Source: Planctomycetota bacterium
GTDB lineage: Bacteria; Planctomycetota; Phycisphaerae; Tepidisphaerales; Tepidisphaeraceae
Direction of reading: 5' to 3'
Assembly: GCA_039182125.1 (NCBI GenBank)
Contig: JBCDCH010000011.1
Span: 1-64,000 of the forward strand
DNA: 64,000 nt
Of the stretch, positions 26,235 through 32,292 are shown in pieces (within the stretch, counting starts at the first letter, position 1; each line of letters begins with the position of its first letter). The translations under genes and the position numbers were made by a program. Below the pieces are notes generated by a model. That model saw only the letters and a list, made by a program, of their open reading frames with translations, did no database searches and was not told the origin of the DNA.

Positions 26235-27035
26235 GTGGCCGATGAAACCGACATGTCGACCGATGCCCCGTCCGACACCGACGCCGACACCCGCGCCGCC
26301 GACGCCCCGCCACGTCGGCTGACGAGCAAGGCCAAACGCCGGGCGTGGGCCGAGAGCTCGGTCCGCCTTTGGCTGGTCCTTGCGGCGGTCCTGGTCATCA
26401 TCGCCGGCATCTTCGTGGCCACCAGCGTCGGCGACTACCTCGACGAACGCGACCTGATCCTCAACGGCGAGAAGAAAATCGCCACCGTCGTCACCATCCA
26501 GGGCGATCGCGGCCGATACGACATGCCGCGTGAACTGGTTCTGCCCGCCGAGGTGCAATTCGAACGCGACGACGGCTCGCTCTACACCGAGCGGATCAAT
26601 CTCATCAGCCGGCCCGGCGAAATCGTGAGCGTCGGAGACGCGATCGAAATCCGCATCCGCCTGCGGGCCACGCGCTACGAAACCACCGACCGGCTTGAAC
26701 CCCCGCCGTTGTTGGAAAAGTTCCTGCCGCTGCCGATCCTGCTCGGCATGGCGGGCGTTTCGTTTGCCTTGGCGTCGGTCCGCCGGGGCGCGATCGTCGG
26801 CCTCGCGACCCATGGCGAACGCCGCACCGCGCGGGTCGTCGAGCAGAAGACCTCGCCCCTGGCCCCCGCGAGCAAGTTGCTGCGTTTTCATTACGCCGAC
26901 GACGATGCACGGCGGGTTCATGGACTGCTCCACCCCAACCCTGCACCGGCCAAGGGCGAGAGCTTCGACGTGTATGCCCGCCCGGGTAAGCCCGGCAAGG
27001 CGGTCGCGGCCGATCTGTACCCGACCGAGATGTGA
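26235..27035 (+). CDS. DUF3592-like two-helix membrane protein
   Basis: This 266-residue protein has an acidic, disordered N-terminus, a transmembrane helix at about 43-64, a beta-rich extracytoplasmic loop of about 110 residues, a second helix near 177-193 and a cytoplasmic beta domain. This arrangement resembles DUF3592 proteins, which have no known function. The GTG start follows a TACGCT box by 6 bases; an ATG six codons further in is an alternative. It faces away from the GH10-like gene and precedes the cyclase-repeat gene on the same strand by 82 bases. Confidence 0.6.
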   Translation: MADETDMSTDAPSDTDADTRAADAPPRRLTSKAKRRAWAESSVRLWLVLAAVLVIIAGIFVATSVGDYLDERDLILNGEKKIATVVTIQGDRGRYDMPRELVLPAEVQFERDDGSLYTERINLISRPGEIVSVGDAIEIRIRLRATRYETTDRLEPPPLLEKFLPLPILLGMAGVSFALASVRRGAIVGLATHGERRTARVVEQKTSPLAPASKLLRFHYADDDARRVHGLLHPNPAPAKGESFDVYARPGKPGKAVAADLYPTEM

Positions 27036-30120: not shown

Positions 30121-32292
30121 ATGGCAGGCCACTGGTCCCCATCCTTCTCGCCTTCGATCTCCGCCGCCCTGCGTCGGCTGGCGATCCGGCGCACGTGGCC
30201 GATCCTTGCGTCGGCCGGCGGGCTCACGGGCCTGGGCATCCTCTCGATCGCCGCGGTCGATCCCGCCGCCGCCGGTAAGCAGGTCCAATTCCTCGTCCTC
30301 GCCGTCGCGGCACTCGGCGTTTTCCAACTCATCCACTACCGCTCACTGCTGCAATTGGCCTGGCCGATCTACGTTCTCGGGCTGCTGTTGGTCGCTTACA
30401 CGGTGCTCGACAAGAAGGTGGACCTGCCCTGGGTCAACCCGGTCAAGGGTGCACGGAACTGGATTCAGGTTCCGATCATCGGCTCGCTCCAGCCGGCCGA
30501 GATCCTCAAGGTCGGCTTCATTATGGTGCTCGCGGGCTACCTGCGGTTTCGTGATGATCAGCGGACGCTCAAGGGGTTGCTCGTGCCGGGGTTGATCGGC
30601 CTGTTCCCGGTCGCGCTGATCCTGCAACAGCCGGACCTCGGGACGGCGTTGGTGTTCATCCCGACACTCGGCGCGATGCTGTACGTCGCCGGGGCAAAGG
30701 TGCAGCATTTCCTGCTGGTCGCGGCGGTGATGGGGGCGGTCCTGCCGGCGGCGTGGTTCAGCGGGATGGACCTGCCGGTTTTCCGCAACATGCCAGCCTT
30801 TGTGAAGGACTACCAACGTGACCGCGTGCTGGCGATGTTCAAGAGCGACGAGGAAACGCTCATGAACACCGGCTTTCAGCAGCAGTGGGCGCTGGCCGCC
30901 ATCGGCACCGGCGGCGTCTTGGGCAAGGGCGTTCACGACGTGCCGGCCGGGCGGAAGGTGCCCGAAGCGCACAACGACATGATCTTCGCGCTCGTCGGCG
31001 AACAGTTCGGCCTGTGGGGCGCCGGGTTGGTGATCGGGTGCTATTTCGTGTTGGTCACGACGGGCTTTCTCGTCGCGATCGACAGCCAAGAGCCGTTCGG
31101 TCGCCTAGTCGCCGTCGGCATCGTCACGCAACTCGCGGCCCAGGCGGTGCTCAACATGATGGTCGCGCTCAAGATCATGCCGGTGACCGGGATCACGCTT
31201 CCGTTCGTCAGCGCCGGCGGCACGAGCCTGATCGCCAGCTACATGGCCGCGGGGATTTTGCTGAACGTCGGGCAGTACCGGCCGCGAAGTCTGGCGCGGG
31301 AGTCGTGTGAGTTCTGTCCCAAAGCCCACGCCGTCAGCCGTGGGCGTTCGGTCGCGGTCGATTACAGTCACGCCATGTCCTTACCTGCCCTCCCGTACAC
31401 CGACTGGAAAGACACGAAACAAACGCTGCACCTTTACACGCAAATCGTCGGCAAGGTGCGGATGGCTTTGTGTCATCCGCAGAATCACTGGTGGCATGTG
31501 CCGTTGTATGTGACGCCGCGTGGACTGACGACGGGGCCGATGCCGTACGAGGGGCGGACGATCACAACGATGTTCGACTTCCGCGACGACGAACTCGTCA
31601 CCGAGTGCAACATGAACGGTTCGCGAGTGATCGACTTGGGAATGCGAGGCGATGTCGCCGAACTGTACAAGTTCTACATGGAGTCGCTCTCCGAACTGGG
31701 CGTCGACGTGGACATCGTCGCCAAGCCGTACGAAGCGCCATGGGCCCCTGACCACTTCACCGAGTGCAGCGACTTCGCCAGCAACGATGGGCTCCACATC
31801 TCCCGCTGGCATCGCATCCTCTGCTGGGTCGAGCAGGAGTTCTGGAAGTTTCGCAGTGCCGACGGCATCGGTTTCCTCGGCAAAGTAACGCCGCCGCACT
31901 TGTTCTGGCACTCGTTCGACCTCGCCCTCACCCTCTTCTCTGGCCGGCCCAGCGGGAAGAAGCCGAGCGACTTCCGCAATCCGCAGGACGCCGAGGCGTA
32001 CAGCCATGAGGTGATCTCCTACGGCTGGTGGCCCGGCGACGATGACGTGCCCGACCCGCACTTCTACGCCTACCTCGCCCCCATGCCCGACGGCTTCGCC
32101 GACACGAAACTCCCGCTCGGGGAGATCGGTGACAACGGCACCGCCCTGCTCCCCTACGAAACCGTCCGCACCGCCGACGACCCGTCCGCGACGCTGCAAA
32201 AGTTCCTCGCCGATTTCTACGACGCCGCCACGAAAGCCGCCAACTGGCCGGCGTTGAAACGCACCGGCCCGTTCCCGCCGGATCCGAAATGA
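30121..32292 (+). CDS. rodA: RodA/FtsW (SEDS) protein run on into a DUF5996 protein
   Basis: One uninterrupted frame of 723 codons holds two unrelated modules. Residues 1-390 are a SEDS peptidoglycan glycosyltransferase with about ten helices. Landmarks are ARNWIQVPIIGSLQPAEILK (about 116-135), a G-F-Q-Q-Q-W-A-L-A-A-I-G segment near 252, EAHNDMIFALVGEQFGLWGAG near 284, and LPFVSAGGTSLIASYMAAG near 360. SEDS proteins end shortly after this point. The frame instead continues through a hairpin repeat (residues ~400-412) into DUF5996 (residues 419-723). The stop codon of rodA may have been lost when the repeat inserted. Whether the fusion protein is made, or two proteins, is unknown. Confidence 0.8.
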   Translation: MAGHWSPSFSPSISAALRRLAIRRTWPILASAGGLTGLGILSIAAVDPAAAGKQVQFLVLAVAALGVFQLIHYRSLLQLAWPIYVLGLLLVAYTVLDKKVDLPWVNPVKGARNWIQVPIIGSLQPAEILKVGFIMVLAGYLRFRDDQRTLKGLLVPGLIGLFPVALILQQPDLGTALVFIPTLGAMLYVAGAKVQHFLLVAAVMGAVLPAAWFSGMDLPVFRNMPAFVKDYQRDRVLAMFKSDEETLMNTGFQQQWALAAIGTGGVLGKGVHDVPAGRKVPEAHNDMIFALVGEQFGLWGAGLVIGCYFVLVTTGFLVAIDSQEPFGRLVAVGIVTQLAAQAVLNMMVALKIMPVTGITLPFVSAGGTSLIASYMAAGILLNVGQYRPRSLARESCEFCPKAHAVSRGRSVAVDYSHAMSLPALPYTDWKDTKQTLHLYTQIVGKVRMALCHPQNHWWHVPLYVTPRGLTTGPMPYEGRTITTMFDFRDDELVTECNMNGSRVIDLGMRGDVAELYKFYMESLSELGVDVDIVAKPYEAPWAPDHFTECSDFASNDGLHISRWHRILCWVEQEFWKFRSADGIGFLGKVTPPHLFWHSFDLALTLFSGRPSGKKPSDFRNPQDAEAYSHEVISYGWWPGDDDVPDPHFYAYLAPMPDGFADTKLPLGEIGDNGTALLPYETVRTADDPSATLQKFLADFYDAATKAANWPALKRTGPFPPDPK
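31321..31348 (+). repeat. Hairpin repeat (GTCAGC-centred) between RodA and DUF5996 modules
   Basis: GCCCACG (31324-31330) and CGTGGGC (31339-31345) form a stem around CCGTCAGC, flanked by AAA and GTT. It has the same architecture and central GTCAGC as the hairpin at 59569-59595. Such palindromes are common dispersed elements in planctomycete genomes. This copy is translated in frame. Confidence 0.6.
31363..31368 (+). promoter_or_regulatory. -10 box before the DUF5996 start
   Basis: TACAGT ends exactly 6 bases before the ATG at 31375. This is the spacing seen at other apparent leaderless starts here and supports separate expression of the DUF5996 module. Confidence 0.35.
31375..32292 (+). CDS. 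DUF5996 protein (alternative, independently started)
   Basis: This is the C-terminal module of the run-on frame read from its own ATG, giving 305 residues. It begins SLPALPYTDWKDTKQTLHLY, the natural N-terminus of DUF5996 proteins, and includes QNHWWHVPLYVTPRGLTTGPMP near 40-61 and HLFWHSFDLALTLFSGR near 175. The family has no assigned function; it is soluble, and the conserved His/Trp residues suggest an enzyme or ligand-binding protein. A TANNNT box sits 6 bases upstream. I consider this start more likely than the fusion, because the link is a repeat rather than a designed linker. Confidence 0.6.
   Translation: MSLPALPYTDWKDTKQTLHLYTQIVGKVRMALCHPQNHWWHVPLYVTPRGLTTGPMPYEGRTITTMFDFRDDELVTECNMNGSRVIDLGMRGDVAELYKFYMESLSELGVDVDIVAKPYEAPWAPDHFTECSDFASNDGLHISRWHRILCWVEQEFWKFRSADGIGFLGKVTPPHLFWHSFDLALTLFSGRPSGKKPSDFRNPQDAEAYSHEVISYGWWPGDDDVPDPHFYAYLAPMPDGFADTKLPLGEIGDNGTALLPYETVRTADDPSATLQKFLADFYDAATKAANWPALKRTGPFPPDPK

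Follow-up and report, generated by a model that had tools for sequence, protein, structure and literature searches.

The stretch of DNA analysed here (the window; 64,000 nt) carries on its forward strand a single open reading frame, 30121-32292, in which a rodA gene runs without interruption into a DUF5996 gene. The frame extends from an ATG at 30121 to a TGA at 32290-32292 and comprises 723 codons with no internal stop. Both Pfam domains are complete in the 723-residue protein. FTSW_RODA_SPOVE covers residues 51-386 (9e-71), and the score against PF01098 (239.1 bits, cut-off 26.4) places the protein among the SEDS proteins; DUF5996 (PF19459) covers residues 421-711 (2.4e-90) at 303.1 bits, against a cut-off of 25. 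The features of the locus are as follows.

30121..31314, + strand: complete body of a RodA-type SEDS protein, codons 1-398 (Pfam; orthologue alignment)
31315..31320, + strand: codons 399-400, TGT CCC, within the region in which the relatives terminate (stop positions in 20 relatives)
31321..31348, + strand: REPIN-like element of 28 bp, one hairpin carrying both outer ends (AAAG ... CGTT), coding KAHAVSRGR (family alignment and counts)
31349..31374, + strand: remaining linker, in frame up to the DUF5996 ATG (sequence)
31363..31368, + strand: TACAGT, candidate -10 box for a leaderless DUF5996 transcript (6-base gap to the ATG)
31375..32292, + strand: DUF5996 protein with its own ATG, 305 aa and stop (Pfam; relatives)

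The preliminary description had placed RodA and DUF5996 in one frame without a stop, and this is what the locus contains. It also had the frame running past the end of the SEDS domain, which holds, at about residue 390, which does not: the relatives place the end of the RodA body near residue 398. The linker has a codon score of -0.101 per codon, whereas the halves on either side score 0.262 and 0.243; it thus does not resemble a sequence that has been coding for long, although its 20 codons are few. A single-sequence structure model of the 723-residue protein had a mean pLDDT of 39.8 and was set aside.

The two halves and their relatives

The same-family sample consisted of 25 other genomes, 21 with a RodA-grade match and four with a weaker FtsW-like match. 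Twenty of these RodA loci (L020-L039) were aligned; the 21st (L040), whose RodA ends NVARNQRKLMF, was omitted as more distant. The RodA half of the window keeps 82 of the 86 residues invariant in the 20 orthologues, and one of the four changes, F396 to C, adjoins the stop zone. All 20 aligned proteins terminate just past a motif (EF, EY or a close variant) that ends at window residue 398, with stops, in the numbering of the window frame, at codon 399 (one protein), 400 (11), 401 (seven) or 403 (one). The E-F is in frame in the window, where the RodA end reads E397 F398 C399 P400 and the repeat starts at codon 401. Comparison of the rodA 3' ends, the check put forward in the preliminary description, thus puts the start of the repeat within the span of codons (399-403) over which all 20 relatives stop. 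In eight further RodA relatives, drawn from other families (L041-L048), the stop comes no more than about 10 residues from the same motif, and none of the eight is fused. Like other RodA proteins, then, the window protein has the whole family body; it differs in its C-terminal DUF5996, found in none of the relatives examined, and in scoring below the NCBIfam cut-off for the RodA equivalog (TIGR02210, the top of six SEDS models listed, 242.7 bits against 336.7). Its closest named relatives are records from Phycisphaerales and other Planctomycetota, and in a scan of named genomes, from which 80 of 103 loci were kept, the best segment listed lay in the RodA part in all 80.

Of 65 residues that 11 relatives share without exception, the DUF5996 half retains 59 (six differ); it scores 303 bits, against 325-489 bits in ten other full-length matches from the class. 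Because these residues and the 82 of 86 in RodA are kept, both halves look functional. The literature searched yielded no described function for DUF5996, and no solved structure related to it by sequence was found.

DUF5996 was matched in 12 of 397 genomes of the class and 13 of 392 of the phylum, 21 distinct genomes in all, of which 19 were above the cut-off. Among these 19, no RodA-DUF5996 fusion was found beyond the window; the other 18 matches lie, at best match, in open frames of 282-458 aa. One sub-cut-off match (G524) is within a 699-aa frame. A conserved fusion was thus not seen in the genomes searched. Nor was a conserved rodA/DUF5996 neighbourhood: in the three same-family genomes with DUF5996 the two genes are on different contigs, although these are draft assemblies and adjacency is not strictly excluded. 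The loci of 29 rodA relatives, with up to 1.5 kb on each side, held no DUF5996 match, and the genomes searched included none of the same genus. A conserved fusion lacking the repeat, which the preliminary description had named as evidence against its own account, was seen in none of the relatives examined.

The same genome encodes a second RodA of 399 aa with an ordinary end, directly behind a PBP-type transpeptidase gene (L175:6244-9779, G000:C74), and has transpeptidase matches on two further contigs; given these, the fused protein need not be its only RodA. The window RodA is closer than the C74 RodA to those of the family (46-55% vs 34-41%, L020-L039). Elsewhere in the window, 26235-27035 encodes a 266-aa protein without a Pfam match; of the 29 relatives whose rodA loci were searched, 10 have a homologue there, nine on the upstream side of rodA and L029 on the downstream side. 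The segment 34005-37250 encodes a predicted 1081-aa protein rich in GGxGND-type repeats with an LESLENRRLLS motif near its start.

The hairpin repeat and its genomic family

The 28-bp hairpin at 31321-31348 is AAAGCCCACGCCGTCAGCCGTGGGCGTT. The window has a single occurrence of the 22-bp core, where 100 shuffles gave 0.01 on average (one shuffle had a match), and no further copies with up to three mismatches were found in the 64,000 nt. At the same tolerance the 4.13-Mb genome gives 48 + 42 matches, some sites being counted on both strands, and a backwards control 1 + 0; the hairpin, reported in the preliminary description as a repeat between the genes, is therefore a member of a genuine dispersed family. 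The family consensus gives 75 + 77 matches against 3 + 2 for its control, palindromic sites being able to score on both strands. The family is near-private: with one mismatch allowed it was found in two of 26 same-family genomes, the second of which (G019) has mostly a variant form.

Sixty distinct elements, a subset of all copies, were examined in 73 partly overlapping loci drawn from pattern-search places, single-hairpin places and 20 stretches chosen by hand, with the surrounding genes predicted by a codon-usage script. The family is REPIN-like and consists of paired hairpins of 68-78 bp, most often 72 bp (the length of 18 among the 32 distinct strings), with AAAG or AACG at one outer end and CTTT or CGTT at the other. 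The paired form is seen in 35 of the 60, whereas the window copy is a single hairpin, and it is for this reason called a remnant of a REPIN-like element. It resembles the 28-bp copies with both outer ends on one hairpin (10 of 60), a form that would be expected had an internal deletion reduced a pair to one hairpin. Its stem deviates from the family consensus, and the exact 28-bp sequence is unique in the genome. The 28 nt fold at -14.3 kcal/mol with a z-score of -3.3; over a 42-nt stretch around them the z-score is -1.8. Such a degenerate single hairpin is not fresh-looking, and the suggestion that an insertion had been "caught in the act" is not supported. Four loci (L207, L177, L186 and L208) have 28-bp hairpins whose outer ends match or resemble the family's (AAAG/AACGCCC...) but whose inner stems differ, either a second repeat class or terminators; the 28-bp copies may thus include a separate single-hairpin or terminator-like class.

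The elements are concentrated at gene ends. For 47 of the 60 a stop codon is no more than 30 bp away, where random placement within these loci would give 4.05. Seventeen include a stop or approach one to 3 bp or less (3.1 random), and only two, the window copy included, are wholly intragenic (48.9 random). In eight other genes (L007, L009, L146, L192, L206, L187, L188 and L193) the stop falls 11 bp or more within the element, which codes for two to about 20 residues ahead of it. At the far end of this range stands rodA, whose stop-free element hands the frame on to the next gene. In one of the eight (L192:54-1526), the last 20 residues of a predicted 490-aa protein are repeat-coded (KAHGFSGGSPATSDHALTHA; KAHGFSGG...THA*) in the same register as in rodA. 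Another locus, L147:1476-1600, has a 68-bp paired element that is read in frame in the N-terminal region of a predicted 212-aa protein, just before an apparent lipoprotein signal (IVFACTLVGC); this repeat would supply the front part of the protein, unless the true start is further downstream.

The GTAG- and CGTC-tagged REP and REPIN repeats are described, in the part of PMC3733652 that deals with them, as short high-copy palindromes, many in inverted pairs, near gene 3' ends; some code for residues inside genes and some supply the stop codon of a flanking gene. The window family is likewise a dispersed, high-copy, short palindrome, extragenic and near gene 3' ends. In contrast, the window copy bridges two complete genes as one unpaired hairpin, and the family ends carry no GTAG or CGTC tetranucleotide. 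It also differs from RAYT-mobilised REPs in that neither of two Y1 transposase-like genes (L173:3536-4249, G000:C11:66535-67248, and L174:2043-2687; one is about 2.5 kb beyond the window end) is flanked by the family: with up to five mismatches, the two stretches around these Y1_Tnp genes held no copy except one five-mismatch hit in L174. Rickettsia palindromic elements, which the same part of PMC3733652 presents as palindromic repeats read in frame within protein genes, share with the window repeat this in-frame reading; they are described as inserts within genes, whereas the window repeat is a linker between two.

Probable loss of the rodA stop

The repeat was removed in silico at five assumed boundaries, and the rodA frame stayed open to codon 454, 455, 456, 536 or 715. 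Insertion alone, by which the preliminary description explained the missing stop, is thus not supported as its cause, since every excision leaves the frame open for at least 454 codons; the ancestral stop lies in neither flank and must have disappeared either through a substitution or because flanking bases were lost. We infer an order of events, to which as a whole a probability of roughly 55% is given. A remnant of a dispersed REPIN-like element would occupy the former rodA stop site or the position directly behind it, and the stop would have been lost most simply through a substitution at codon 399 (TGT here, TGA in the relative L032); this single step would suffice if the repeat already stood behind the stop, the usual place for the family. 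Because the remnant is stop-free in the rodA frame and of a length that phases rodA with the next gene, rodA translation would then continue through 20 linker residues, nine of them repeat-coded, into a complete DUF5996. What else is needed, one phase in three and about 20 stop-free codons at 64% G+C, can by our estimate be attained by chance.

A rather unlikely variant of this history is that the repeat itself inserted at the stop codon and destroyed it, a few bases being lost at that point or when a full pair shrank to one hairpin. The element starts at codon 401, the stop position in seven of the 20 relatives, and has both outer ends, as would be expected of a pair shortened by internal deletion; the eight genes with an in-element stop suggest that such elements can define gene ends, the overwriting of native stops there being putative. 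Read-through would be permitted by most full elements, 28 of 32 strings being stop-free in the rodA frame, though these 32 mostly represent each element twice, once per strand. Against this, the five excisions restore no nearby stop, so that an additional loss is required. An error of sequencing or assembly, with a true stop near codon 399 or a contig misjoined at the repeat, is quite improbable. The assembly is a draft of 131 contigs and a single wrong base at codon 399 would be enough, as might an indel in the last codons that reached the out-of-frame TGA at 31308-31310. This TGA, however, would sacrifice the in-frame E-F that closes the RodA body here and has a counterpart (EF, EY or a close variant) in the 20 relatives, and beyond it neither other frame has a stop for the next 110 bases. 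A misjoin is unlikely at a 28-bp copy that is unique in the genome; codon usage is similar on both sides, and the left flank matches relatives through the homologue of 26235-27035 in 10 of 29 rodA loci.

That the hairpin is an ordinary rodA terminator, and no fused transcript exists, is very improbable, even though 28-bp hairpins with similar outer ends and other inner stems also occur at gene ends and some, such as those in L207 and L185, are followed by T-rich stretches. Just two T follow the stem in the window and no terminator-like site was called at the hairpin; moreover, transcripts ending there without a stop would be non-stop messages, and ribosomes crossing the hairpin would be expected to disrupt it. 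The frame and the repeat are real and correctly placed, the mechanism first proposed finds only partial support, and the fused product is a prediction; a stop lost by substitution beside a REPIN-like remnant is the favoured reading.

Predicted tethered and free forms of DUF5996

The predicted product of the stop loss is a 723-aa RodA-DUF5996 protein. The C-terminus of RodA is cytoplasmic, and DUF5996 would be held on the cytoplasmic face of the membrane. A free form may also arise. As had been pointed out for this locus, DUF5996 has its own ATG (31375) and a TACAGT box (31363-31368) that ends six bases before it. TANNNT stands at a gap of 5-9 before 11 of the 44 predicted gene starts of the window, against three hits across the 30 gap positions 10-39 and one at gap 3; rodA itself has TACCGT at gap 9. 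These boxes suggest that leaderless transcription is common in the window and, with 11 of 44 genes having one, a separate leaderless DUF5996 transcript is credible. Planctomycetes, represented by one species in the tables, are among the phyla with few Shine-Dalgarno genes in the part of PMC5397173 concerned, where the base bias of such phyla is attributed to leaderless mRNA and/or ribosomal protein S1. A membrane-tethered DUF5996 alongside a free one is thus a reasonable prediction.

Repeats at gene ends are already on record in the relevant part of PMC3733652, and a repeat that links two entire genes varies this theme; the literature searched yielded nothing on bacterial gene fusion by stop codon loss. 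It is possible, but unlikely in its full extent, that REPIN-like elements repeatedly take over gene ends in this lineage, where they create fresh stop codons and short extensions (8 of 60 elements), and that one processed, stop-free copy has made a working bifunctional, membrane-anchored protein from two unrelated genes, with the leaderless promoter kept and free and tethered forms coexisting. Annotation may label the 723-aa product simply as RodA. If real, the fusion would tether DUF5996 to the cell-wall machinery by accident and not through a conserved partnership. The locus would then be an example of a small dispersed palindrome serving, on loss of a stop, as a ready-made linker that creates a new domain fusion with no visible damage to either gene.
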